Part shown: piece by piece, positions 1,111 through 20,900 of the stretch
Position numbering within the stretch: position 1 is the first letter of the stretch
How the letters are laid out: every line of letters begins with the position of its first letter
IMG/VR virus record: IMGVR_UViG_3300020371_000069
Location: 1 to 21,733 of that record
DNA length: 21,733 nucleotides
Source: a virus
Reading direction: 5' to 3' (one strand)
Translations under genes and position numbers: made by a program
The notes under the pieces: model-generated
Databases searched by the model: none
What the model saw: only the letters and a program-made list of their open reading frames with translations
What the model was told of the DNA's origin: nothing

Positions 1111-2391
1111 TCAGTATGCTTTAATAATATACTTGACTCGATAGTATTTAGTCAATAGGGAAATATTGTCTTGTGGAACTAAAGATGGTGTTGGGATAAC
1201 TTGTTTTGATAAATTTAATGCAAAAGTTGCCTCGTTTGCTGTTAATGCAAGTTCAGTTTGTGAGAAATTAATAGTGGTTGTTGTATTTGTAGCAAGACCA
1301 CCTGCTGCAGTTCCCGCACCAGTAGTATTTCCCCATCCATATACATTTGCGCCATCACCAAAGTCAGATCCCTCTTGAATATAATGCGAGTGAGATAATA
1401 GTGTGCCTGGGTTAAACACGCTAACGTTAGCAGATACATTATTACATAAAACACCAGCAGTATATCTGTTACCTCCAGGAAGACCAGGAACACCATTTTG
1501 TGGATCACCTGGCCAATAGTTGTTAAAAGATGCGTTAAATTCTCCACCAGGAGCAACAACACTATTGTAACCAATTTGAGGATATGTTGTAGATCCAATT
1601 TCACCAGTTCCAATAGCATAGAATGCACCACCAGTAGGAGGAGAACCCCAAGGAACCCAACCAACAGGCACCTGATCTGCTTGTCCACTAATAATCACAT
1701 GTTCATGCTGTGGAACATTAACAATAATATCTTTTACTGGTCCAATATCTGCTTGAATATTTCCAACAATATTATAATTTACTTCTCCACTAATTCCTTC
1801 TGCACCAGTAGTTACTAGAGTGCCTAGTTTAAAGAACTTACTGTCACTTTGACCAGTTCCACTATATACTTGCTCATCTGGTGGGTCACCTTGAGCATCA
1901 ATCTTATCAATGTACCAGTTTCCTCCACCAGAACCAGCAGTAAATGCATCACCAGTACCAGAAGAACTTAAATCTGGTGCATTATATGTAATGAGTGTTG
2001 GTGATGATCCTGTATTACCATCCACATTACCAGTACCATGCAATCTTCTATTTTTATAGTTGGGAAGATTAAATGATCCTGAATATGTTTTAGTGTTGCC
2101 CGTTTTAACGACCTGAGCATTACCACCATATGTGTTACCAATAACATCCCATAGATCTGGATAGTCTGCTGCCTGCAAAGTATCACCCTCACAAACAATC
2201 CAACCAGGAAATCTAGATGACAAAGAACCACTAAGATCTCCCCAGTTTCCATTCTTATCTCTAAAGATAGTCATGACAGTTCCTAGAGCCATGCCATCTT
2301 CTTTCTTATTCCTAACACTGTACCAATGTCCAGGTTGGATATTATCAGCACTATCATACGTAGTGACTGTCCAAGAAGTATTATATGCCAT
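1111..2391 (-). CDS. Tail-collar (gp12-like) fibre protein, 426 aa
   Basis: Residues 37-118 carry a phage tail-collar domain: GTVMTIF, then FPGWIVCEGDTLQAADYPDL, an IGNTYGG turn and FNLPNYKNRRLHG. This is the pattern of short tail fibre and collar proteins such as T4 gp12. About 35 extra residues precede it. The rest is Gly/Ser/Thr/Asn-rich beta sequence with two HxH motifs, HEH at 229-231 and HSH at 334-336. In T4 fibre tips such motifs bind metal ions on the trimer axis. It ends in YYRVKYIIKAY, a tail shared in style with the two other collar proteins here. It starts one base after the stop of the upstream adhesin gene and ends just before the oxygenase gene, whose SD overlaps its TGA stop. 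It probably forms a trimeric receptor-contacting fibre or baseplate appendage. Collar assignment is firm; exact virion position is not. Confidence 0.85.
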   Translation of the reverse strand: MAYNTSWTVTTYDSADNIQPGHWYSVRNKKEDGMALGTVMTIFRDKNGNWGDLSGSLSSRFPGWIVCEGDTLQAADYPDLWDVIGNTYGGNAQVVKTGNTKTYSGSFNLPNYKNRRLHGTGNVDGNTGSSPTLITYNAPDLSSSGTGDAFTAGSGGGNWYIDKIDAQGDPPDEQVYSGTGQSDSKFFKLGTLVTTGAEGISGEVNYNIVGNIQADIGPVKDIIVNVPQHEHVIISGQADQVPVGWVPWGSPPTGGAFYAIGTGEIGSTTYPQIGYNSVVAPGGEFNASFNNYWPGDPQNGVPGLPGGNRYTAGVLCNNVSANVSVFNPGTLLSHSHYIQEGSDFGDGANVYGWGNTTGAGTAAGGLATNTTTTINFSQTELALTANEATFALNLSKQVIPTPSLVPQDNISLLTKYYRVKYIIKAY

Positions 2392-2392
2392 G

Positions 2393-5300
2393 TTATCCGA
2401 CTGTTATTGAAATAGAAACAGGAGTACCAAGAGATGCGCTAGTTGTTATTCTGAGTCGCAGTGTCTCACCATTATTTATTGATCCCGATGTAACCCATGG
2501 TCCACCATTGATCTGCATTTCACCGCCACTAATAGCAATTGGAGATGGAGATGTGATACCAAATATTTGAACCACATTACTATTCACAAGAGTATTTGGT
2601 GGTTGATTGTCTTTATCAATGAAACTAAATGCATCTGGGTCAATATCACCAGCAGTTGTAGTAACCACTTTCCAATCATCCGATAGTTGATTCAGCGGAA
2701 GATTTCCAATAGTAACAGTAGTTTCTACTTCACCTCCAGGTTCTGTGCTAGACAACAAACGTAACTGCAAAGTGTCATTAACACTGATATTTCCACTGGT
2801 TACCCATGCTCCACCATTAATTCGGAAATCTCCATTAGTTACGGTAACAGCAGCAGGAACATTTAATCCTGTAATTGTTAAGATGTCACTAGTAATATAA
2901 GTATTTGCTGTTACATCTAACTTATCAGTAAAATCAAAGAAGTCTGGGTTATCATCAGCAGTAGTAACATTAGTGACATTCCATGTAACAACTGGTCCAC
3001 TACCAACAGATACACCAGTTTGTACAGAGTCACCTAACGCATCGCTAGTCAAAACTCGCAACGCTAAAGTTTCTCCATTATTAATTAACTTTACCGCAGT
3101 GCTAAAAGGTCCACCATTTACAGAAGATTCAGCACCACTCAGTGGGGTACTAACTGTACCAATAACATTGAGTCCACTAATTGTAACCAGATTACTAGTA
3201 ACATATGAACTAAGTGGGGCATCAACTACATCATTGAATGAAAAAGCATTTGGTACGTTTACTGGTTCTTGTTTTGTAAATATACTCCAAGTTGTATTTG
3301 TAACACCAACAGAAATTGATGATTCTTTTTCAGTGCCATATAGTGACGAAGAATCCATCCTAACTCGTATGGTATCGCCATTGCTAACAGTTTGCATAGC
3401 ACTTGAATAAGCACCACCATTTACAGACAACTCAGCACCATTAGTGACAAAAGCATTTACACTTATACCAAGTCCACTAATAGTAACAATTTCTGTCTCA
3501 TACATTGTTGATAATTCTGCATTTTGAATACTAGAAAATGCAAATGTATCTGCAACATCATCTGGTCCAGTAACATTTACCGTAACAGTTTGCTGAGCAA
3601 AAGCACCACCACCAGATACTGTTAGAGTATATGTGGTTGTTTCTGCAGGACTGACAATAGATGTAAACTGTTGTCCTACAGGAACAACACCAACTCCTTG
3701 GTCAATTTCTGCTGCTGTAGCAGTTTCATTACCATTGAATAATGTACTCCATGATAAAACTACAGCTTCTCCTTCCAAAATATCTGTATCTGGTGAATCA
3801 TCATTTGCTCTAAAATAAGCAATAGTAGGAGGAATTGTAAAACTCACAATCGCATAACCATTATTATTGTTAGTAGATTGAGAATCTAAACTAAAGATAG
3901 TATTGTTATATGCAGATCCTCCACCACCACCAGAAGATCCACCAAAAGAATTATCTACACCAGCACCACCACCGCTGCCAGCGGAACTACCGCCACCACC
4001 GCCGCCGCCTCCGCCGCCGTCACCACCACAATTAGCTCCACCATTTCCAGTTGCTACACCAACGGCACCAGCACCTATACCACCACCAGCAGATGCTCCA
4101 TTAGTACAACTACGGTTCCAGGAACCGCCACCGCCGCCACCTCCACCGCCGAGGTTACAAATCCACTGATTAAGTCCTACATCAAATACACCAGAAGCAG
4201 CGCCACCGCCACCACCTGATCCAGACCATCCACCACCTAAACTATCTCTTCCACCCGCTCCACCGTTTCCAGCAACAGATACCCCACCAACGCCGCCTGG
4301 TTTGTTTCCAGGAGATCCAGAAGCACCATTAGATCCTTGAGTGCCAGCATAAATGGTAAGTTGTCTACCCTCAGAAGATGGTAAAATTTCAAAAACTCCA
4401 ACTCTACCACCTGCACCTCCACATCCTCCACCACCAGCATCAGATCCACCAGATCCTCCACGACCAGCAGCAAGAGTTAAGTATGCTGTTACATTGGGAG
4501 GAATACCAACGGCATGAGTGCCAGTTCCATATACAGTTGTAGTTCCTGCTCCAGTTCCAGCATCAGGGGCAATAACAATGACTCTAATAGTATCAGTAGT
4601 TGTACCACCAGCACCAGTAGCAACAATTGTATAATCAGTGGAAACTGTAGGAGAAACTACTTGAGTATCGATAGCAGAAACTGCAACACCATTCAACGTT
4701 ATACTGGTTGGATTGTCTGCAGGAACACCAGCAGTAACTTCCCATGATAATGTTGTGCTTCCCCCAGTTACAACTACTGCAGGATTAGAACTGAATTGTA
4801 CGTTTGGTGGATCACCTGAGTCAAATGTAATATAAAAATAACCATCATTTCTATTATTAGGAATAGATGCTTCAGCAGTAATAGCACACGTAGGAACTGC
4901 TAGAGAATTATAATATCCTCCACCACCATTTCCTGCTCGTCCAGGAATGTGGTTACCTGCAGATGACGCGCCACCACCACTTCCTCTAGGCACTCCGCCA
5001 CCGCCTCCACCAGATCCTCCATTAGACTGAATACCACTACCACCATTTAATCCATTTCCAGCGTTGGTAAAATTAGTAGTAAGATTGGTGTTGTATGTAG
5101 GAACTTGTCCACCATAATCAACCGCACATCCACCACATCCACCACTTCCTCCAGCGACAGCAAGAACGGAACCAAGACCAACAGCAACTAGAGCAGATGC
5201 TCCACCACCACCAGAACCACCACCGTCAGTTACCCAAGTCTCGCCGCCTGCACCGTATCCACCAGATCCACCAGAATAATAACCAGATCCACCACCAACA

Positions 5301-5584
5301 CCAGCACTAAATCCAAAATTATTACTTGCAATATTTCCATTATCACCAAGATAAACAGTAATAGTTTGACCACCGACAACTGCAGGATCCAAACTCCCAG
5401 TCATATATTGACCTTGAGGTGCAGTTTGATATGGAGATGGAGTTAACACTCCCCTTAGATCTATAGCACCGAGAGCATCACCACCTTTTGCACCACGAAG
5501 TATAAAACTTACGTTTGTAGCATTTGCTGGAAAGTCAAATGTATGAGTTCCTGGTGTAGTGAATTCGTATGTCTGAGTTGCCAT
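2393..5584 (-). CDS. Glycine-rich, Ig-like and repeat-containing fibre or adhesin protein, 1063 aa
   Basis: The N-terminal part holds two copies of one module: a beta leader (residues 5-31 and about 353-375), a glycine-rich core (about 93-225 and 374-557), a closing strand with NN..GY, then an Ig-like domain (about 260-337 and 587-674). The second core includes runs of nine and ten consecutive glycines (479-487, 523-532). Residues 677-1063 are four degenerate repeats (about 677-772, 773-874, 875-980, 981-1063) of the form F.F.D, SN.VTI.GI, NGG.w, nGdtl.lR, VG. The last 490 residues are homologous to the ends of the two upstream genes. Similar repeats and Ig-like folds occur in bacterial and phage surface proteins, and glycine-rich sandwiches form receptor-binding tips in some T4-like adhesins. 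No enzyme motif was seen. The start is an ATG overlapping the upstream stop as TAATG. Likely a virion adhesin; a capsid-decorating role is an alternative. Confidence 0.82.
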   Translation of the reverse strand: MATQTYEFTTPGTHTFDFPANATNVSFILRGAKGGDALGAIDLRGVLTPSPYQTAPQGQYMTGSLDPAVVGGQTITVYLGDNGNIASNNFGFSAGVGGGSGYYSGGSGGYGAGGETWVTDGGGSGGGGASALVAVGLGSVLAVAGGSGGCGGCAVDYGGQVPTYNTNLTTNFTNAGNGLNGGSGIQSNGGSGGGGGGVPRGSGGGASSAGNHIPGRAGNGGGGYYNSLAVPTCAITAEASIPNNRNDGYFYITFDSGDPPNVQFSSNPAVVVTGGSTTLSWEVTAGVPADNPTSITLNGVAVSAIDTQVVSPTVSTDYTIVATGAGGTTTDTIRVIVIAPDAGTGAGTTTVYGTGTHAVGIPPNVTAYLTLAAGRGGSGGSDAGGGGCGGAGGRVGVFEILPSSEGRQLTIYAGTQGSNGASGSPGNKPGGVGGVSVAGNGGAGGRDSLGGGWSGSGGGGGAASGVFDVGLNQWICNLGGGGGGGGGSWNRSCTNGASAGGGIGAGAVGVATGNGGANCGGDGGGGGGGGGGSSAGSGGGAGVDNSFGGSSGGGGGSAYNNTIFSLDSQSTNNNNGYAIVSFTIPPTIAYFRANDDSPDTDILEGEAVVLSWSTLFNGNETATAAEIDQGVGVVPVGQQFTSIVSPAETTTYTLTVSGGGAFAQQTVTVNVTGPDDVADTFAFSSIQNAELSTMYETEIVTISGLGISVNAFVTNGAELSVNGGAYSSAMQTVSNGDTIRVRMDSSSLYGTEKESSISVGVTNTTWSIFTKQEPVNVPNAFSFNDVVDAPLSSYVTSNLVTISGLNVIGTVSTPLSGAESSVNGGPFSTAVKLINNGETLALRVLTSDALGDSVQTGVSVGSGPVVTWNVTNVTTADDNPDFFDFTDKLDVTANTYITSDILTITGLNVPAAVTVTNGDFRINGGAWVTSGNISVNDTLQLRLLSSTEPGGEVETTVTIGNLPLNQLSDDWKVVTTTAGDIDPDAFSFIDKDNQPPNTLVNSNVVQIFGITSPSPIAISGGEMQINGGPWVTSGSINNGETLRLRITTSASLGTPVSISITVG
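2396..3556 (-). repeat. Four-repeat C-terminal block of the 1063-residue paralogue
   Basis: Encodes residues 677-1063. Units begin at about ADTFAFSSIQ, PNAFSFNDVV, PDFFDFTDKL and PDAFSFIDKD. Unit 3 contains TEPGGEVETTVTIGN and unit 4 GITSPSPIAISGGEMQINGG. The block ends SISITVG. Confidence 0.85.
2473..2480 (-). promoter_or_regulatory. Candidate T4-type late promoter element
   Basis: The minus strand reads AATAAATA, one base from TATAAATA. It is about 80 bases upstream of the collar gene that starts at 2391 and inside the preceding adhesin gene. It falls in a Ser-Ile-Asn-Asn stretch, so it may be coincidental. Confidence 0.2.
3914..4465 (-). repeat. Glycine-rich region 2 of the 1063-residue paralogue, with polyglycine runs
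   Basis: Encodes residues about 374-557. It contains nine consecutive glycines (4124-4150) and ten (3989-4018). These runs use many GGC codons, giving short GC-rich islands in an AT-rich window. Most other glycines nearby use GGT or GGA. Confidence 0.82.
4910..5308 (-). repeat. Glycine-rich region 1 of the 1063-residue paralogue
   Basis: Encodes residues about 93-225, dominated by GG.GG and GGSGG patterns with interspersed Tyr, Asn and Ser. It follows the beta leader TPGTHTFDFPANATNVSFIL, which is typical of phage glycine-rich tip domains. Confidence 0.8.
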
Positions 5585-7641
5585 TATCCTATCGTAATAC
5601 TCATGGTCTTTGCTGTTGATAATGTAGGAGCAGTCAAAATTCTAAGTTGTAATGTATCACCATTGTTTAAATTACCAGTTGATACCCAATTGCCACCATT
5701 TAATCTAAATTCACCATTCGTGATACTGATTGGTGATGGACTAGTAATGCCAGAAATAAGAACTGTATTACTAAGTACAAGAGTATTTGGTGGTTGATTA
5801 TCTTTGCCAACAAAATAAAATGCATCTGGTATCAAGTCACCAGCAGTTGTGGTAAATACTCGCCAGATGTCAGTAAGTTGTGTGAGTGGAGAATTCCCAA
5901 TCGTTACATTAGTATTTACCTCACCACCAGGGTCAGAACTAGATGTCAACCTAATTTTTACTTGCTGATTATTAACAATTGTGGTAGCAGATCCATATGA
6001 TGTAGTATTACCACTAGTTGGATCATATACAACAATGCTAGCATTTGAATTAGAACATGAAATATTTGTTGGTACGTTAATACCAGTAATAGTTACATAC
6101 TCACTCTCGATTAATGTATTAGGTTGTTGATTAATTTTATCTAAGAAATCAAAAAAGTCTGGACTATTATCAGCAACTGCTACATTAGTCACGTTCCAAG
6201 TTCTAGCAGCACCATCACCAACAGTTATTTGTGTGCTTTTTAATTCACCAAGAACATTACTAGTAAACACCCGTAACTGTATAGTTTCTCCATTCGCTAT
6301 TGTTTGTGGTAGATTAGTCCATGAACCTTGATTTACTCTACATTCAAAATCAGTATTACTAGGAGAACTTACAACTCCCTGTGTAATACCAGTAATAGTT
6401 ACAGCGTTACTTTCAACATAAGATAAAATTGGTGCATCAGTTACATCATCAAATTCAAATGGATTTGGTAATGTTGCAGGTTCTGTCTTTGTAGTAATAT
6501 TCCATGTTGATGAAGTATCGCCAATACTAATAGATGCTGTTTTCTTTGTTGCAAAAAGACTAGATGCAGGCATCCTTACTTGTAGTGTGTCTCCATTATC
6601 AATACCTGTAATAGTTCCAGAAGTCCAAGCACCACCATTTAACCTAATTTCAGAATCATTTGTTGAAAATGCATCAACCAACGTTTCTATACCAGTAACG
6701 GTGATAAAATTAGACTCATAAAGAGTAGATACTTCGGCATTTGAAACAGAATTAAATGCATATGCATCTGGTGTGTCATCGTATTCCAATAAAGTTACAT
6801 CCACTGTTGCATTCAACGTAGTTCCATCTATACCAGTAGAAGTTAACGTATATGTTGTATCCGTCAGTGGAGCACTAATAACTTTTTGTCCAACGCCAAT
6901 AGGAACAGTTCCAACACCATTGTCTATACTAACACCAGTAGAAGTTTCAATACTATTAAATAAAGTGCTCCATGAAAAAACTACAGCTTCGTCTAGATAA
7001 ACAGGACAAGTTGGTGACTTATCATTAGCCCTAAAATATGATATTGTATGTGGAACAGGGATTACATCAATAGTAACAAAAGAAGTCGCAGATTGTCCAC
7101 ATAAATTAGTAACTGTGAGTGTATAAGTTGTTTGTACTGTTGGTGCTACAACTAATTGAGAAAGAGATGCTACATTGGTGCCATTAATCGATATGCCTGT
7201 TATATTATCACCACCATAAGTCCATGTTAAAATGGCACTATCAGATCCTGTATTTACAACAGAATCTTTATTTGTACTTAAAGACGCAGAAATTGGACTG
7301 CACACTGGAGGACAGAATCCAGTTCCTCCCCAAACATGCTTCAAACTTAAATTATCTCTAGCAATTCGATCCGTTCCTACAGCATTAGTATAAATCTGAT
7401 TGCGGATATAAGTAGAGGTTCTATTATTAGCTACCCAGTCATAAACATAAAATTCTACACCAGTTAGTCCACCATCCCATTCACCATATCTACCAAAAAG
7501 AGAATAATAATATCCAGATACGGTATTACGCTTAGTATCATTACCATCAATAGGAGCACCAACGCCAGGAATCCAAAAGTTTGGATGATATTGGCAAGTG
7601 CTTCCCCCATTTACATAAAAGTGTCCTGTATTATATCCCAT
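5584..7641 (-). CDS. Ig-like and tetra-repeat fibre or adhesin protein, 685 aa
   Basis: Residues 1-112 form an N-terminal domain rich in Tyr, Trp and Gly (for example SGYYYSLFGRYGEWDGG) that I do not recognise and that has no counterpart in the two neighbours. Residues 113-196 are an Ig-like domain that matches the first Ig-like domain of the 1063-residue neighbour (VV.PTV.T.YTLT pattern). Residues 199-288 are a second Ig-like domain starting SYFRANDKSP, which is shared by all three paralogues. Residues 289-685 are four degenerate repeats ending in SITIG. There is no signal peptide, transmembrane segment or catalytic motif. It starts with ATG one base after the upstream stop (TAAGATG) with no clear SD, so coupling to the upstream gene is likely. 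The role is probably cell-surface binding as part of the tail or a virion decoration. Structure type is clear; function is inferred. Confidence 0.8.
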   Translation of the reverse strand: MGYNTGHFYVNGGSTCQYHPNFWIPGVGAPIDGNDTKRNTVSGYYYSLFGRYGEWDGGLTGVEFYVYDWVANNRTSTYIRNQIYTNAVGTDRIARDNLSLKHVWGGTGFCPPVCSPISASLSTNKDSVVNTGSDSAILTWTYGGDNITGISINGTNVASLSQLVVAPTVQTTYTLTVTNLCGQSATSFVTIDVIPVPHTISYFRANDKSPTCPVYLDEAVVFSWSTLFNSIETSTGVSIDNGVGTVPIGVGQKVISAPLTDTTYTLTSTGIDGTTLNATVDVTLLEYDDTPDAYAFNSVSNAEVSTLYESNFITVTGIETLVDAFSTNDSEIRLNGGAWTSGTITGIDNGDTLQVRMPASSLFATKKTASISIGDTSSTWNITTKTEPATLPNPFEFDDVTDAPILSYVESNAVTITGITQGVVSSPSNTDFECRVNQGSWTNLPQTIANGETIQLRVFTSNVLGELKSTQITVGDGAARTWNVTNVAVADNSPDFFDFLDKINQQPNTLIESEYVTITGINVPTNISCSNSNASIVVYDPTSGNTTSYGSATTIVNNQQVKIRLTSSSDPGGEVNTNVTIGNSPLTQLTDIWRVFTTTAGDLIPDAFYFVGKDNQPPNTLVLSNTVLISGITSPSPISITNGEFRLNGGNWVSTGNLNNGDTLQLRILTAPTLSTAKTMSITIG
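5587..6777 (-). repeat. Four-repeat C-terminal block of the 685-residue paralogue
   Basis: Encodes residues 289-685. Units begin at about PDAYAFNSVS, PNPFEFDDVT, PDFFDFLDKI and PDAFYFVGKD. Unit 3 contains SDPGGEVNTNVTIGN and unit 4 GITSPSPISITNGEFRLNGG, as in the paralogues. Unit 3 has a short insertion around VVYDPTSGNTTSYG in place of the usual NGG.W segment. Confidence 0.85.
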
Positions 7642-7642
7642 C

Positions 7643-9727
7643 TTATCCTATCGTTATACTAACGCTTTTATTTGTGCTTACAGTAGATGGAGTAAGCATT
7701 CTAAGTTTTACAGTATCGCCATTACTTACATTACCTGTAAATGCCCAAGGACCATTATTAATAGATGCTTGACCATTAGTAACAGTAAATGGAGATGGTG
7801 ATGTAATACCTTGAATTAAAACAGTGTTACTCTCAACATATGTATTTGGGACTTGATCGTCTTTATTAATAAAATAAAAAGGATCTGGTATGATATCACC
7901 AGCGGTTGTAGTAATAACTTTCCATGTTGTTGTCAATTGTTCTAGTGGAAGATTTCCTACAGTAACATCAGTTTCCACTTCACCGCCAGGGTCAGGACTA
8001 GATGTTAAACGAACAGACAAAGATTGTCCGTTTGTTATAGTTTGAGGACTACTATTATAAGCACCACCTGCAATAGAGATTAATGCACCATTTGTAGTAG
8101 TAACAGTAGTAGGAACATTAATACCTGTGATAGTAACCGTATTACTATTAATTGGTGTAGAAGCAGCTTGATCTACAGCATCCGTAAACTCAAAATAATT
8201 AGGACTACCATCAGCAGTGGTTTTATTTGTGACACTCCAGTTAACTGCTGCACCTGCACCCACACCGATTGATGTAGTTTTAGTATCACCAAGTGCAGAA
8301 GTAGTAGTATTTAACCTCAACCGCAACTTTCCACCATTTGTAATAGTCTTTGCATTACCACTCCATGCACCACCATTAACTTGACTTTCAAATCCATCTG
8401 CAGCTCCTGATGGAGCAGACACTGCAACAGTTTGTGTAATACCAGTAATCGTTACTTCATTACTAGTCACAATGCTGTTTGGATCAGCACCTGTAACATC
8501 ATTAAAACTAAATGTATTTGGAATCTGCGCTGGTTCCGACTTCGTAGTAATACTCCAAGATGCACTAGCAGAACCAACACTCACAGAAGTTGTTTTTTTA
8601 GTTATATAATTGCCAGAGGATGTCATCCTCACTCGCACTGTGTCACTATTGTTAATTGTTTTATTTGATGTACTAAAACCACCACCATTTTTCGATGTTT
8701 CAGCACCATTTGTTGCACTAAGAGTTACAGATGTCTCAAGACCAGTAATAGTTACAGTATTACTAGTGTATGAAGTAGAAAGTTCTGCATTAGATACACT
8801 GTCAAATGCAAAAGTATCTGGATCACTATCTGGAACCAGCATTTTGACTACAAAATCTTCAAAAGCTTCTCCAGTAGCACCATTTACCTTCAATCTATAT
8901 TGTTGTTCTGATGTTGGACCAGGGTTTACAGTATAAGTGCCATTTAATAGATTTCCACTAGGAATTGTATAAAAAAGATTTTCCCCTGGCATCGTATAAA
9001 TTGCACCAGATGTAGCAGTTGCAAAACTGCCCAATGCAGTGCTCCAAGAAAAAGTTACTGGATCTCCAGGAAAAATATCAGTATCAGCTGACTCATCATT
9101 TCCTCTAAAATATTGAATATTTGTAGGAACCTCGCCATAAACTCTTATTCGTGAAATGCCATATCTATCTCCAGCGTTTACATTACTAGAATAGATACCA
9201 CCACTTCCTGCAAATTCTGGTTGCTGAATACTAAATGCATACAACTGCCAAAGGAACAATCCGCGATTTGCAGGAGGAATTTGCACAGTTACGCTAAACC
9301 AACCTCCCCCACCTTGAACATCTGGGAATGTATATCCACCATCCTTACCAGAATATGCAACCAATGTTGCTCCTGTACTACCTCCAGTAGAGCACTTAAT
9401 ATAGAGGGATTCTCCAAAGTTATTAGGTCTTTCTCCACCGTTAAAGTCACTACCAACAATAACATCAATGATCATATACTCCATAGAGGTAGTATTCATG
9501 AGCCATTGAGCTGTGCGGTTAACAACATAGAAAGAACTATTAAATGTACCAATACTTAAACAGTTTCCTCCAGTATTAGTAGCAAATCCACCCAATTCAC
9601 CTGTTCCACAAGCACCAGAAACACCATAACAATTGCCATAAATGGCACATCCATCCAGATAATCATTGACTCCAGTGAAATCCCACCCTGTGTTTCCTGG
9701 TATAAGAGTATAGATTAGTTGTGCCAT
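7643..9727 (-). CDS. Jelly-roll, Ig-like and tetra-repeat fibre or adhesin protein, 694 aa
   Basis: I place the start at the ATG at 9727 (MAQLIYTLIPG), one base after the stop of the upstream collar gene. The frame extends 24 bases further to a TTG at 9751, but that would overlap the upstream gene and has no SD. Residues 1-200 form a unique N-terminal domain with several cysteines (DGCAIYGNCYGVSGACG) followed by strands resembling a reelin-type jelly-roll: ESLYIKCSTGG, WFSVTVQIPP, YAFSIQQPEF and YGISRIRVYG. Residues 202-300 are the Ig-like domain shared with both downstream paralogues (YFRGNDESADTDI...FSWST). Residues 301-694 are four degenerate repeats (301-398, 399-502, 503-611, 612-694) ending SITIG. 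It lacks the extra Ig-like domain seen in the other two. Likely a virion surface adhesin; the N-terminal domain is the best candidate for ligand binding. Confidence 0.8.
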   Translation of the reverse strand: MAQLIYTLIPGNTGWDFTGVNDYLDGCAIYGNCYGVSGACGTGELGGFATNTGGNCLSIGTFNSSFYVVNRTAQWLMNTTSMEYMIIDVIVGSDFNGGERPNNFGESLYIKCSTGGSTGATLVAYSGKDGGYTFPDVQGGGGWFSVTVQIPPANRGLFLWQLYAFSIQQPEFAGSGGIYSSNVNAGDRYGISRIRVYGEVPTNIQYFRGNDESADTDIFPGDPVTFSWSTALGSFATATSGAIYTMPGENLFYTIPSGNLLNGTYTVNPGPTSEQQYRLKVNGATGEAFEDFVVKMLVPDSDPDTFAFDSVSNAELSTSYTSNTVTITGLETSVTLSATNGAETSKNGGGFSTSNKTINNSDTVRVRMTSSGNYITKKTTSVSVGSASASWSITTKSEPAQIPNTFSFNDVTGADPNSIVTSNEVTITGITQTVAVSAPSGAADGFESQVNGGAWSGNAKTITNGGKLRLRLNTTTSALGDTKTTSIGVGAGAAVNWSVTNKTTADGSPNYFEFTDAVDQAASTPINSNTVTITGINVPTTVTTTNGALISIAGGAYNSSPQTITNGQSLSVRLTSSPDPGGEVETDVTVGNLPLEQLTTTWKVITTTAGDIIPDPFYFINKDDQVPNTYVESNTVLIQGITSPSPFTVTNGQASINNGPWAFTGNVSNGDTVKLRMLTPSTVSTNKSVSITIG
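7646..8827 (-). repeat. Four-repeat C-terminal block of the 694-residue paralogue
   Basis: Encodes residues 301-694, four degenerate units of about 83-109 residues. Unit hallmarks are F.F.D at the start, SNTVTITGI, a central NGG.W or GG.F, nGd.l.lR, and VG before a Trp-containing strand. Unit 3 has PDPGGEVETDVTVGN and unit 4 has GITSPSPF. Both are mirrored at the same positions in the other two paralogues. Confidence 0.85.
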
Positions 9728-11887: not shown

Positions 11888-11905
11888 ATGGAATTAGATT
11901 TCCAT
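11888..11905 (-). other. Perfect 6-bp inverted repeat spanning the giant gene's stop codon
   Basis: Arms ATGGAA and TTCCAT flank a six-base loop that contains the last codon and TAA stop of the giant gene. No U-run follows the stem directly, although an A/T-rich stretch (GAAAAAATTTTTC) lies about ten bases beyond it. The hairpin is real as sequence. A role in 3'-end formation or mRNA stability is possible but weakly supported. Confidence 0.3.
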
Positions 11906-14900
11906 TAACCACCAACCTTGTAGGTTGCTTGGGATGCCAGATGGTTGACCACTGTTGAGTGTTGCTCCAGCATATACAAGACCAAATGCAGCATTTGGTG
12001 TAGTAACAATCAATTCACCACCATCATAACCAGAGAGGTTTACACCAGCAATTGCATTAGATGTATTGGTAGAATCACCAGCGATGGGGATACCATCAGG
12101 TGCTCTAAAGATCATTCTAACATTATACGTTAGAGCGCCACCAATATCAACAACTCTGATCATATCACCAGTTACCGCATTGGTAGGTAACTTAAGAACG
12201 AGGTTGGAAGATGCCTTGACAAAGAGGTTAATGTTAGGTGCAACTACACCAGCATCACCAGAAACTGTTGAGACATACTCCCATCTTCTAGCGCCAGTAG
12301 CACCGAAGTAACCATCGATTCCACCTAGATCAATTGTTCCATTGTTATTTACACCGAATCTCAAAGTGGTTCCGTCGTTGACGGTAAGATCACCACCATT
12401 CAACTGAACATCACCCGAGAAGAGATTAGTTCCAGTTCCCTGAGTCTCAATGACACCAGCAATTGTTAGATTGCCGTTACCATTAACAAACTGCAATCTG
12501 TTATTAGCACCCGTGTCATCCTTAACAAGGATATCACCACCCTTCATTGTTAGGGTTCCAGTATCACCATTGACTACGAACTCATCAAAGTCAGAACCAA
12601 CAGATAGATCACCAGCAAGTTTAGTGTCACCATCAGAAGAATCAACTTCAAATGTTACGTTGGTGCCGTCAGTAATAGTTAGTTTTCTATCTTCATTTGA
12701 CGAAGTACCAGTAAGTAGAATGTCATTTCTAACTTCAGTTGGACCTTCAATTGTAGTCTGACCAGTAGTGGATAGAACTTCAAATACTGTGAATGCAGTT
12801 GGTTCTGCACCATCATTAATTCTCAATCCCTGAACGTTCTGTGAATCAGAAGAAACAGCGGTAACATCAAAGAGTTCAGTATCAGAGAGTCTTAAGATGT
12901 CAGTAACATTAATCGATCCACCAAATTCAGCAGTCGTAATAGTTACTGAGTCACCAGCAGTTCCATTGGGAACAACAGATGTTGTGAAACTGACGTTCTC
13001 TTGCTTAGTTAGTTTGACGAGTGGGCAGTTATCTGGATGATCAAGTTTAAGAGTTGTGCCCTCTTGTGCTCTCTCAACCTCAACTCTAATACCCTCAGGA
13101 TCAGTAACAAGAGATGGGTTAATGATGTCAACAACTCTTAGAATTTCAGAATTGACTTGATCATCAACCTGTGCTCTGTCAACCAAAATTAAATCGCCAA
13201 TTGCCAGATCAGCAGTACCAATTGGTTGATTGAGTGGTAGGTAATATGTACCTGCTGTTGCATCTTCCACGAAAGAAGCACCACCCCAGTTTGCAGCACC
13301 TTGAGCATCGACAGTCTTATTGATTTCAACACGCTTGTAGATGTCAATGTTTAGATCATCTAGTCCACCAAGTGGGTGTTGCTGAACGGTAGTACCAAAG
13401 ATACCTCTGGTTGCTGTTAGTTCACCAGCAGAAAGACCACCAAACAGTGTAATGTTTCCATCAACTCTCTCAGATGCCTTAACATAGAGACTATTGTTAA
13501 TGGTTGTGGTTCCTGCGTCAGCACCGATGCTTAGGATCGAACCAGTACGGCAAAGGTCAATCTCGTTAGAACCACCAGATGCACTGAAGATCTCCAGTTT
13601 TGGTGTAAAGGAGTACATCTTGGTAACACCAGTAGAAGGTGTACCGAGTTGAATATCACCATCAACTTTCAGTCTTGCGTTGCGGATATTGAATAGTGAG
13701 TTTGGATTAGCAAACGCACCACCCATAAAGATCTGTGAGTTGTATGCAACATCGCTTGCAACAGTACCAATATCAATTACAGAGTTCTGAGACTTGCTGT
13801 GGATATAAAGTAAACTGGTAGTTGCTTCGTCACCAAACTTAAGAATCTGAGAAGGAGCATTGTTACCAATGTTGATGGATTGCTGTGGTGCATCATCATA
13901 TGAATTAGCAATAGACAGTGTAACTGCTTCTGGGAATAGATCAACCGTTGCAGTTGATGGTGCTAAAGTAAATGTACTGCTTGGAGTATCAATAACACCA
14001 TTGTCAATAGTTAATGTTTGAGTAAATCTTACATCACCATCTACAACAAACGTTTTGTTGAGTATAGCATCAGAAGATGAGACATTAACACCAACTCTCT
14101 GTAGATCGGTTGCAACTCTGAGTGTTGCAATAGCATCAGGGTTATCTCTATCACCACCAACCCAGAAAGCATTACGCTCACCTGTTGCAGTTTTATTAAT
14201 TAGAGAACCAGATGGTTCGTTGAGATAGTTGTTAATAGTTCTACCAGTAATCCAAGTAGTACCAACAACATCCAAGTTTGCCTTTGGATCAGTATGTACA
14301 TCAACAAATGCTGTCTCGTATGCAGTATGTGCAGAAGCAGCAACAGTGTTGATACCCAGTCTGTAATCACCAATGGTCTCAGTCTTAGTTCTTAGTGTCT
14401 CACCACCAAGAACACCAACTTCCTTCCAGTTAGCAGTAGAGAACTGCATAGTGGGAGCAGCAGTGCTACCGTTGATTGGAGTACCAGCGTTAGATACAAG
14501 GTTTGCCCATGTTGGATTGGTAGTAGGAGAATCTAATACACCATCACCATCATTGTCATAAGATACACCAGAGATAGACTCACCAACAGTAATGTAGCAG
14601 AAGCTATCACTTGGATCGAATGGAATTTGATTGCCACCAATAACTACATTGGTAGCAATATTGAATGTACCATTCAGTGTACCAACTGGATAGAAGTTTT
14701 CAATTCTGATAGCAGAAGTTTCTCTGAGTCCAAGAGAAGCATTGGTTATTTGTACACTGTTTACAATGTTCCAAGTAATCTTGACCGTAGTGGTTCCATT
14801 GAACTCAATGTTAAAGATCTCTCCATTAGGAATAGGAGTGAAGTAGTTTGCATAGATCCAACCAAGGGAACCAGACCTCTCAACAGAAGCACCCTTAAGT

Positions 14901-17900
14901 AGAACATCGCCATCTTGTGGTAATACAAATGAACCAGAACTACCATACTTGACATTCTGCTTGGAAGATAGTGCAGTACCACCCAATCCAGCACTGTACA
15001 AGGATGATTGGTTAGGAGTTACGTTTGTAGGTGTAGGACCACCTAACTCAAGTGTAGTATGTGTCTGGAATTTGTAAGACTGACCATTCTTTCTAGCATT
15101 GAGATGGAATATTGCTGCCTTAACTTCATTCTTACCAATGTAAATATCTCCACTCTGGCGTGGTACAAATGTAGTTCTATCAAGGGTAGGATCGTTCTTA
15201 GATCCATCAGGGTTCTCATTATCTACATTAGAAAGAATAACAAGTGGTGTATCTTGTAGGGTCAGATCACTGTTATTAACATTAATAGTAACTGGTGAGT
15301 TGAAGTTACTTACTAGTTCTCCGTCACCACCGTTGACTGTAATATTCTGATTGAATGTTACAGGAACCTCGAAGGTGGTAACGAGTGAACTGATATCATC
15401 CTCATCATCATCAGAGTCAATCAGTGCTGCTCTCTCTAGGAACTCTTCCTCACCAGTAATAGCATTGATCTTACGGTTACCAATGTATAGTTCACCATTA
15501 GAGTTAATACCAGTGTAGAAGACGATACCGCCGTCTTGGCGCTTCGCTTGAGCATAGTAGTCCTGAGTCGCCGTTAAGACGATCTCCTGACGTGCTGGGA
15601 GACCTGTGGAGTAGTTACCAGGACCGAAACCAAGGTATTCAAACGTGTGGTTACCAGCACGAGCGATAGATGGTCTGCGAAGTTCAACGTACCACTTCTG
15701 GTCAACAAATACCTGACTGTCACCAGCAAGAGGAATCTGTCTGTCTTCAGCACCAGCAGAAGCATTACCTTCCTGTGCAACAATAGCATTGTCACCAGTG
15801 TAGCTGTTACGATTAAATGCTGGTGTATCAATTAGATCAACGATTGCTTCCTTAGTCATTGAAGACTTAGAATCGTTGGTTCTAACTAGACCATGTACAT
15901 AGTTATCAGCAGCAGAATATGTTGCTGGTGGATCGATTAGACCCTGTGCAAATGCTTTCTCACTGTTGGTTGTACCAGCGTGTGTGAACCAGTAAGGATC
16001 GTTCTTATAGTTCTGTGGATACAGATAAGAAATTGGTTGTGAGAACTTAAAGTTACGGAAGTTATTTTGGTTGCCAGCACCTAGAGGTAGTGGTGAAATG
16101 TTACCACGGATAGCGGTTAGATAGTAGATACCATCTTGCTGGTTAGGAATTCTTCTCTGTAGTGTCTCAATGTCAAAGATGTAGAAGGTGTTATCAATTT
16201 CACCAGCATCCTCAACAGAAGCAACAACGTATCTGTTCTCAGATCCATCTTCCTTGATAATATCACCAGGAGTAACAGTATATACAGGTGCTCCATTCTG
16301 CTTGTAGAATAGGTCATTCTCACCCTTTTCAATCAGTCTCTTGAGTGGTAGAGACTTACCCATATCTGGATCATCTAGAAGGTCAGCATAGATGCCACCC
16401 TGTTCAAATCTAGTGTTAGTATATGGGGAGTAGATTAGGTTACCATCAATAGTGTCACCCTTGATGATTAGGTAATGATCAGAACCAATCTGAGTATATG
16501 CATGAACATATGCCGAACCAGAGCTGTAACCAGACCACTGAATGTAGTGAGGATCACTAGGAACACCACTTCCAATTGCCTTATTAACTTCAAAAAGTCC
16601 ACCCTGAGGAGCAGTAATCTTGACAGTTCTAAAGGAAGAACCGTTTAGTGCTGGAATCTCTGGGTTTGGTTCATAATCATATACGTTGAGTTCTAGGTAA
16701 CGGTCACCATCGATATCTCTTAGTCTACCAGACTGTACAGTCATGGTGACGTTATTGTCAGTAGTAATTCTCTTTCTGTAATCAATACCAGCACCAGTAG
16801 TATCTCTACGATATGGATCGTAGGCGTTATTGATAGTTCCTAGATTTTGGATGATCTCACTACTAGTCCAACCAATTCTCTCACCTGGGTTTCTATCATT
16901 CTGGAAGAATGCATCTGACTTGAAGTTGCCAGGTGCAGGCTTCAGTAGGATTTTCTGAGGTCTTAGTCTACGTGTAGAGTCAGTCCTTGTCTTAAGAACA
17001 AATCCATTGATAGGATCTCTAACACCCTCAAGATAGTTAGGAATGACATAACGAATCTTATACGTTCTGTCATCAGCTTCTCTCTTATCTTCCTGACGTT
17101 GATAGAAGGAATCATTAGTCTTAGGATCAGGAGATGTGCGGTAATCGCTATTGCGTCCAATTCTCCAAAGGATACTCTCTCTATAGATTGCTTGGTCATT
17201 GGTGCTGGATGTATCCTTGACCTTGATATACCATCTGCCAGTCTCACTATTAGAATATGCTAAACCTCTTGGGTCGAATGCAAATGGAGTTTGTGCCTTA
17301 TTAGCATAAGCAACAAACTGTGCATCACTTAATTGCTGGAAGGTAATTCTATTTGTATCGTTAATAGCATCTCCGTGTGTCTTATAGATGCAGAATACCT
17401 TGTTTGGTTTATCTAGACTTACAACGTAACGAGTGTAGAATTCAAACTCAGGGTTGATTCTTCCATTCTCATCTGCGATACCAGCGGTAGAATCATTGCT
17501 GTTTTGAGGATGATTTACATTGTCACTTTGTAGGTTTGCTGCAAGAAGTGGTAGTGGTGTGGCATCATTAATTTGTCTAAAGAATACTCTTTGTGGAGTT
17601 GTGCTTGCATTAGGAACATCAAAGATGTGTGCAACATTAGCAACAATACCACCAGTAACTGCTGTTCCACCAGCAACAGCAACGTCTAGTTGACACTTAT
17701 AAGTATCAAGATCGTACTTCTCATCGAGTACAAACTTGTACATATCAATTTCTACATTCTCATCAATCGTATCAGATTCAGATGAGTAGAGGTAGATACC
17801 AGCAGCAGCATTTGCTCTGGTTTCTGCAAGCATCAATTTAGTCTGATCACTACCATTGAATAGAGCAGCAGTAGAATAATCATATGGAGCAGTCTTTCTA

Positions 17901-20900
17901 CCAGGAGCAATTACATAGTAAGTTCTGTTGGTTTCAAATCCATTAGGCAGTCTTACCAAACGCTTATCAACCTCAACATACTTCTGTGCTTCTGCATCCC
18001 AACGTGGACGTGGAACCAGTCTTACTGCAGTACCAGTCTCAAACTTGTGGGGGTTAGCACCACCAGTTCCATCAATATCAATAGTAAAGACAGTTGCTCT
18101 TGTAGCATAATCAGAAGAAGTTGCAGTTGCTTCTACGAGGTCAACAGAACCAATACCGTTATTAATGATAGTGGTGATATTATCGATTAAGGTATCAACA
18201 GCAGATGCTACACTATCACACTCAGGATAACCTGCGTTGCTAGTAGAAATAGTAGGATCAGTTGTAGGTAGAGTATCTGCCCACTGTCCTTTTTCTAGAG
18301 TAAAGTAGAGAGTGATGTTGCTTCCACCAGGACCCTGTACAGGAACAGTAGCACCACTGTTTAGTCTAGCATTCTCTACACCAAGTTCAATCTGTGTGCT
18401 ACCAATCTTTCTCTTAATGAAAGTATTTTCAGGAATGTTGGTGGTGATTGGTGTGGAACCAGCAATCAATTGAGCATCAGAAGTAAAGTCATTAGGATCA
18501 TACTGCTGAACTCTCATACCAATCGTTAGACCAGTATTGCTACCAACATCAACAATAGCACTACCGTTTGTTAATGCACAACCATTTACCTGAGTGGTGT
18601 GATTACGTAGAGAAGAGATAGCAAGATGTCTGATTGCATCCCATGCATCTAGAGTCTCGTTCTTCTCACCATCAATGTACTCTAGGTTGTTACCAATGAA
18701 ATATGCTTCACCAGCTTGGATGGTGTTAAGGTTACCACCAAAGCGCAAGTCATTGATAACTGCATCAGTAATAATACCAACGTCTCTATAGCACTTAGAG
18801 ATCTGTGCATTAGTAGTGAAATCTCCAGAAGATACATCTGGTAGTCCAGACAGAGAACCTGCATCGATAGCATCTACAATGATATCAGTTAAGGTATGGA
18901 TTGTTCCTCTTACGTTAGCACAATCCCAGTTGCCATTATTGACTGCAGGGACGCCATCTAGGTTACCAGCATACAACGCATCGATCATTAGACCGACTAA
19001 GGTATCAATAGTATTAAGAACATCAGAGCAGTTACCCTCAACATAGGTTGTTGGTTGTGCAGGTACAGTTCTTGTAATGCCACTAAGATTTCCTACACCA
19101 GCATCAGTTCCAATAGCCTGAGTGATAATACCGAAGAGGCTATCAAGTGCTGCTTCAATATTAGAACAGGTTGGATTGTTTGTGTCAAGGATAATTGTAA
19201 GGTCTCTGGTCTGTGCTTCATCGCCAGAAGGAGTCCAGTTAGTTGGGATTACTACGATGTTACGCATTACATCAATAGCAATATCCCTTGCCTCAGCAAA
19301 GACTCTTGCTGCCTCATCACGCTCTTCATCTAGGAATGAAGTGATTGCCTGACCATTAAAGATGTTAGTTACATAAATTTCACCACAGTCATATGCTTTA
19401 TGGTTACCACCAAACTTGAGGTTGTATAGTAATTCATCTAATACGTTATAAACATCATCTAAACAATCTTGCTCAGTCTGACCAGGGCGAGGTGTCCAAC
19501 CAAGAGTTCCAACAGGATTCCAACTATACTGAGTGTTGGAATATACATCCTTCATGCGCTCATATGCTTCCTTAGCAATGAACTTCTTATTTGCTGTAAT
19601 CAAGTTGAATGCATCAGCATGACTATCAGAAACAATAGCAGGATCACCTGCAGCATCTAGGGTGATAGTTAGATCAGTCGATGCCAACTGGTTGTTAACT
19701 GCAAGGTTCATCTGATCCTGCAGTTTATTCAATGCAATGATAGTCTCTGATACTTCACCATCAACACCACCAGCAGTGAGTGCGTTGTTGTTAAAGTATT
19801 CTTCGATAGCAGCAATAGAATATTCATTACCACCAAACCAGAGATCTTGTGCAACAGCATCAACAATCAATCCTAGGTCTCTGCGACACTTGGTATCACT
19901 ACCACCTGGGTACACAAAAGTAGGATTATATGCGTTGATAGCAGCAATTGCAGCATCAATCATGTCTGACTTGTTTGCCAGAATTAGGTTGCGAGCATCT
20001 TTATAGCGACCAGCAAGATTATCTGATGCACCACCAGTAACTCTCATTGCATTAGGTGCAGCTGCAATGAATGTGTGAGCAGACTGTGGCAGATGCTGTA
20101 CCGCATCCGCAGTAGCACTTACAAATGTATGTGCGCTTCCTGATGCAGTACCACCATCACCAACGTTAATAGTAATTGTAGTAGCAGTTACTGAGTCAAT
20201 AGTAATTGATCTACCTGCCCAAGGATCCTGACCAGGGCGAGGATAAGTATGCTGAGTTGCGTTACCATCTTGATCACATGTAAATGTGAAAGAATTATCA
20301 GCAAGAACAACACCCTCACCAGCAGTTAATGTATGGGCACCAATAGTGATTTCCATATCACCTGTTGCTGCATTATAGTTTGCAGCAGATGGTTGCCATA
20401 CTTGATTAGCAGCGGAAGCACCAACATTTACAGTAATTGTAGTATCAGTTACACTAACAACAGACAGTGTTGTATTTGCTGCAGGGTCAGTTGCACGAGG
20501 ATATGTCTTTTGTGACTGGTTGTTATCCATGTCACAAGTAAAGGTAAATCCATTTACAGTCAACTCAACTTCATTAGAAGTTGTGAAGTTATGGTTACCA
20601 ATAGTTGCAGTGAACAGACCAGTTGCAGGATCATATGTTGCAGCACTAGGAGTATAATATGAATCCTGACTATTTGCAGGGTCAATGGTAACAGTAGAAT
20701 CGGTTACTGTCAATAGGTTAGCAATTGCTAGTTTGCAGAGGTCACGAGCTCTCTTGAATGCAAAGATAGCAAATCTTTCTTCACCAACTAGACCATTTGC
20801 CAGTGGTGTACCATCAGGATTGAAATACTTTTTGGTTACTTCAATGATATTGCTGTTACCACCGTCTCTGAGATCTTCTGCAATAGCGTCAACAATATGT

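Follow-up and report, generated by a model that had tools for sequence, protein, structure and literature searches.

The three tandem head genes of a T4-like marine cyanophage were found to encode proteins whose last Ig-like repeat, as read from the sequence, stops after strand F and lacks its final G strand, and the missing piece was found at the start of the gp12-like collar fibre protein encoded downstream. What the sequence comparisons show directly is that the repeat is truncated, that a complementary piece exists, is conserved and co-occurs with it, and that the heads are swapped. The heads probably dock non-covalently on the gp12 N-terminus by completing this split Ig domain, the three paralogues being exchangeable adhesin heads. 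The head end would bind the gp12 strand physically, and the heads would be displayed outward and would bind the host surface or a receptor.

Gene arrangement of the tail cluster

The window (the whole stretch of 21,733 nucleotides that was analysed) is a 21.7 kb virus record and was found to be part of the genome of a T4-like marine cyanophage of Kyanoviridae type. Its genes were found in the order known from cultured Kyanoviridae, with the large fibre first, then two collar proteins, the heads, the gp12-like collar fibre and the 2OG oxygenase, which is the order of a T4-like cyanophage tail cluster of this type. Synechococcus phage Sf-CH1b was the nearest cultured relative found. An assembly artefact was ruled out, since the arrangement recurs in cultured phages and in many contigs. 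All features described below for the window are on the minus strand.

The head cluster was found to be preceded by a 3261-aa tail-fibre-like protein (phrog_4527, 11894-21679), and the sub-threshold match of this protein to a Pfam phycobilisome family is probably due to chance. The 2OG-Fe(II) oxygenase gene (449-1102) was found directly after gp12, a position conserved across cyanophages, and its product possibly acts on virion proteins.

Shared C-terminal block and its missing strand

The head proteins P0001 (694 aa, 7643..9727), P0002 (685 aa, 5584..7641) and P0003 (1063 aa, 2393..5584) had been described in the earlier note as tandem paralogues with a common C-terminal block, and their last ~477-495 residues were indeed found to align across all three. 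The block was found to contain one Ig-like domain (YFR.ND.S) followed by four repeats, beginning at about residue 201 in P0001, 199 in P0002 and 587 in P0003, with a pairwise identity of about 50% (51% to P0001).

The repeats were scored with a profile of 101 positions that was trained on complete repeats only, with neither terminal half included. All 12 repeats of the window were found with E values of 1e-19 to 5e-39, by which chance is excluded for them. Repeats 1-3 were found to reach model position 99-101, and repeat 4 was found to stop at position 83 in all three paralogues (model 1-83 of 101; 7646..7888 in P0001, 5587..5829 in P0002 and 2396..2638 in P0003). The same end was found throughout the clade, that is, in the window, Sf-CH1b and the IMG/VR loci, where the final head repeat of reading frames not cut by contig ends was found to terminate at 81-84 except in one case, which was called at 77. 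An end at 81-84 of 101 is that of an acceptor Ig domain short of one strand, as in donor-strand complementation.

Complementary strand at the start of the collar fibre protein

P0004 (1111..2391), the proposed socket of the three heads, was found to contain a Phage tail collar domain (PF07484, 2113..2208, 1.8e-9) and to match the short tail fibre family phrog_4924 (3e-86), and it was found by tblastn to be homologous to the proteins annotated as gp12 in S-PM2 and Syn1. It is, by its collar domain and by this homology, a gp12-like collar fibre protein.

The protein was found to open with MAYNTSWTVTTYDSADN, which is the piece absent from repeat 4 of the heads, and the missing last strand was located in it as MAYNTSWTVTTYDS. 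The proposed donor strand comprises residues 4-18 (NTSWTVTTYDSADNI, 2338..2382), corresponding to repeat-model positions 90-104. When the opening residues of P0004 were appended to a head, the repeat gained 9 to 14 bits and was completed as far as position 100. Of the 547 cyanophage N-termini compared, the gp12 orthologue of Sf-CH1b alone was found to equal P0004 in completing repeat 4. P0004 was thus found to have an N-terminal extension that holds the strand lacking in the heads, as is the case for the partner in donor-strand complementation.

Position of the cut in other cyanophages

In S-PM2-type genomes the four repeats were found on the gp12 side, whereas in the window they are on the head side. 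The repeats were found on the gp12 side in S-PM2, Syn1, S-RIM32, S-RIM44, S-H9-2, S-CAM1, S-CAM3 and S-CAM4, as well as in ACG-2014e/i/j, Sf-FP1 and Sf-CH11. The S-PM2-type heads were found to terminate in the first half of an Ig repeat (SDPIEVTDIDIPVEIKADKPIQVRFD), followed by the second half at the opening of gp12, which starts at repeat-model position 52-58 (E 6e-4 to 4e-9; hhalign E 2e-10). The head half alone was found to match the repeat profile weakly (E 0.005). When the head tail was joined to its own gp12, the pair outscored all 371 random C-termini in 32 of the 39 heads and was within about the top 1% of them in 36 of the 39, the Sf-FR1 heads being excluded from this count. In Sf-FR1 the gp12 half was found to be present and the docking half was undetected in the head genes. 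The Sf-FR1 gp12 (L004 7250-12811) was also found to contain a Gly-rich head-like domain within its repeat array, at about residues 640-900.

The head half was found in 49 of 50,697 phage records, at 147 places, and the gp12 half was found in the same 49 records, at 49 places with one copy each. The usual number of head halves per genome was three among these 49 records, and three was also the most frequent number of heads per gp12; two heads were found in S-CAM4, two in Sf-CH1b and six in S-CAM3. In genomes without heads (S-H9-1, ACG-2014h and S-RSM4), the docking half was absent from the gp12-like proteins. The strongest argument that the two pieces meet is that two lineages with different cuts were always found to have complementary leftovers.

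The identity among S-PM2-type paralogues was found to peak in the last 50 residues, which are the docking half (65% mean vs 15-49% upstream), and no sharp C-terminal peak was found among the paralogues of window-type genomes. The long heads of ACG-2014e (L002 4472-9841) and ACG-2014j (L018 4846-10431) were found to be two-head fusions that keep an internal docking half, and each of these genomes has two head genes yet three docking halves.

Diversity and exchange of the head domains

The N-termini of the three paralogues, claimed earlier to be unrelated, were found by phmmer to belong to three separate sequence families, with a profile-profile probability below 1% for every pair. Homologous N-termini were ruled out by this profile comparison; a common beta-sandwich fold may still be shared. 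The head domain of P0001 (aa 1-200, 9128..9727) was predicted to be a jelly-roll beta-sandwich, that of P0002 (aa 1-116, 7294..7641) was also found in S-H9-2 and in locus L028, and P0003 was found to contain two Gly-rich head domains, the first (aa 1-255, 4820..5584) recognised from its sequence and head family cluster and the second (aa 345-583, 3836..4552) from its sequence and its relation to phrog_2155/phrog_29022. Nothing informative was gained from the names that PHROG and Pfam give to the heads.

The expectation that the same block would occur with other heads in related genomes was borne out by three loci (L023-L025), in which a different head 2 was found and head 1, head 3 and gp12 were mostly 80-98% identical to those of the window. 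Compared with head 2 of the window, that of L024 was found to be 4-26% identical up to residue 200, 36-48% identical across the Ig domain and repeat 1, and 72-94% identical in repeats 2-4. The P0002 head domain was found to recur in S-H9-2 (63% identity over aa 1-129) on a different C-terminal block, and the P0002 block was found to match the S-H9-2 gp12 and not the S-H9-2 head. Head families recur across both types of block. These alignments show heads that are swapped naturally between close relatives.

A PA14 domain was found in the head of a relative (E 5.8e-6). A part of the ACG-2014e head (L002 4472-9841) was found to contain a VWA-like motif (IWIDVSGSM), and related head starts of the form RTQCIS(V/I)IDE were found in S-RIM32, S-RIM44, Syn1 and S-H9-2.

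Predicted structures

In the AlphaFold2 model, the first 200 residues of P0001 form a jelly-roll sandwich (pLDDT 71) with an Ig domain after it, and residues 1-198 were found by VIA-align to resemble reelin, MAM, CBM35/CBM6 and gingipain adhesin domains (Z 9-12). This predicted fold is by itself no proof of function. The viral model structures that resemble the P0001 head were mainly cyanophage structural proteins without known function, and no solved relatives were found by sequence. No pilus family was found among the Pfam matches of the window; FimA/FimC and LpfD were found among the structure matches with modest Z values of 5.5-6.1.

The junction was modelled at the orthologous locus L048, where the head and gp12 share one reading frame; the stop codon between them was read as one residue. 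Repeats 3 and 4 were found to fold with pLDDT mostly 80-93, and the gp12 residues were found to form a strand at 188-196, matching the place of strand 88-96 in repeat 3, with a confidence of about 69 at the donor strand. Repeat 4 together with the donor strand was modelled as an Ig-like domain, to which solved Ig domains were found to align through 197-199 (Z 5-7.6). The gp12 body had no usable fold (pLDDT under 30). Since a joined chain favours strand pairing, this model is a consistency check and not a proof.

Proposed docking and alternative explanations

Each head ends in an Ig-like repeat short of its final (G) strand. In the proposed mechanism, the gp12-like collar fibre encoded downstream would supply this strand with its N-terminus, and the heads would attach to gp12 non-covalently through donor-strand-like, intermolecular completion of the Ig fold. 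Since the heads share the same end, several different ones could fit one kind of fibre and could be exchanged by recombination. The earlier note had proposed that the C-terminus docks on the virion and the N-terminus displays. The C-terminal block as common docking part and the N-termini as exchangeable heads were upheld by the head swap on a conserved block, the P0002 head on a different block in S-H9-2, the top paralogue identity in the S-PM2-type docking half, the jelly-roll head and the PA14 domain in the head of a relative, whereas the docking partner was revised from the virion in general to the gp12 N-terminus.

The gp12-like fibre is, by analogy with gp12 of T4, presumably a trimer. 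It is a tentative extension of the docking model that the usual three heads fill the three docking strands of one gp12 trimer, which might then form a three-headed, multi-specific fibre with cassette-exchangeable specificities; marine cyanophages would in that case have a modular adhesin system peculiar to them.

It is less likely that the split-Ig docking holds with the heads acting as spacers or decoration on the virion-proximal side of gp12 rather than as receptor-binding tips. The gp12 of T4 is anchored by its N-terminus, which lies on the baseplate side, so that in a T4-like orientation the heads would point inward unless the orientation differs here, and the receptor for the heads is not known; against this, diversity and swapping are found in the heads, which include a jelly-roll and a PA14 domain. 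Somewhat more doubtful is the explanation that an ancestral long fibre was split into genes, the half-domains being vestigial and the heads attached to the virion otherwise. A composite order of head, Ig domain, repeats and collar does span the genes, and the cut position shifts between lineages, but precise conservation of both halves was found in all 49 of the 49 records as well as in the IMG/VR clade, the S-PM2-type paralogues are most alike in the docking half, and the fused heads of ACG-2014j retain the internal half. That programmed frameshifting or stop-codon readthrough yields a single chain of head and gp12, as suggested by the 1 nt between the last head and gp12 in the window, is scarcely credible and was rejected, because the spacing in relatives (-1, 0, 1, 2 or 3 nt, and 34-43 nt in S-PM2-type genomes) covers all frames, both TAA and TGA stops occur, and gp12 is adjoined by only one of the heads.

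Comparison with known systems and significance

The proposed docking of the heads on gp12 resembles the chaperone-usher pili (FimA/FimH, Lpf), in which an incomplete Ig-like subunit is completed by the N-terminal strand of the next subunit. It differs in that several alternative adhesins would receive their strand from a phage fibre and in that most cyanophages would supply half a domain and not one strand; a sequence relation is not claimed. The short tail fibre gp12 of T4 likewise has the tail-collar domain, and its homologues are annotated as gp12 in S-PM2 and Syn1, whereas the phage described here has an N-terminal docking strand or half Ig domain together with separate head genes, and its gp12 N-terminus appears to carry the heads. 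In the branched multi-tailspike phages (CBA120/ViI-like), several receptor-binding proteins are joined by common docking modules, with N-termini that dock and C-termini that vary; the order is reversed here and the dock would be a split Ig domain.

The 'virion structural proteins' T4-GC 737-739 and the gp12 T4-GC 740 of Kyanoviridae (S-PM2 p223-p226) were found to have the same gene position and the same head/gp12 arrangement. The main text of PMC3037559 does not mention T4-GC 737-740 by name, so that the presence of the heads in the virion is a matter of annotation only. No description of split-Ig docking of heads on gp12, and none of docking in Kyanoviridae, was found in the open literature. 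Donor-strand complementation in pili, collar fibres of the gp12 type and phages with several adhesins are each already known; what appears new is their combination, in which the proposed docking is C-terminal and uses an Ig domain whose split moves between lineages.

Marine T4-like cyanophages are among the most abundant ocean viruses. Their host-recognition proteins are largely unassigned and are called 'missing' tail fibre proteins in a review (PMC2984593). In coevolution with Synechococcus WH7803, S-PM2d224 is reported to be one of the genes mutated, in parallel, within 39 days (PMC9910659), and this gene (L022 6195-9308) was found to be the S-PM2d gp12 that carries the docking half. If the proposed docking is true, the candidate adhesins, the socket and the docking code of these cyanophages would be named, the presence of several head paralogues before one gp12 would be accounted for, and there would be a direct route to testing which head sets the host range. 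It would also mean that phages use split-Ig, donor-strand-like docking, by which one fibre accepts many adhesins.
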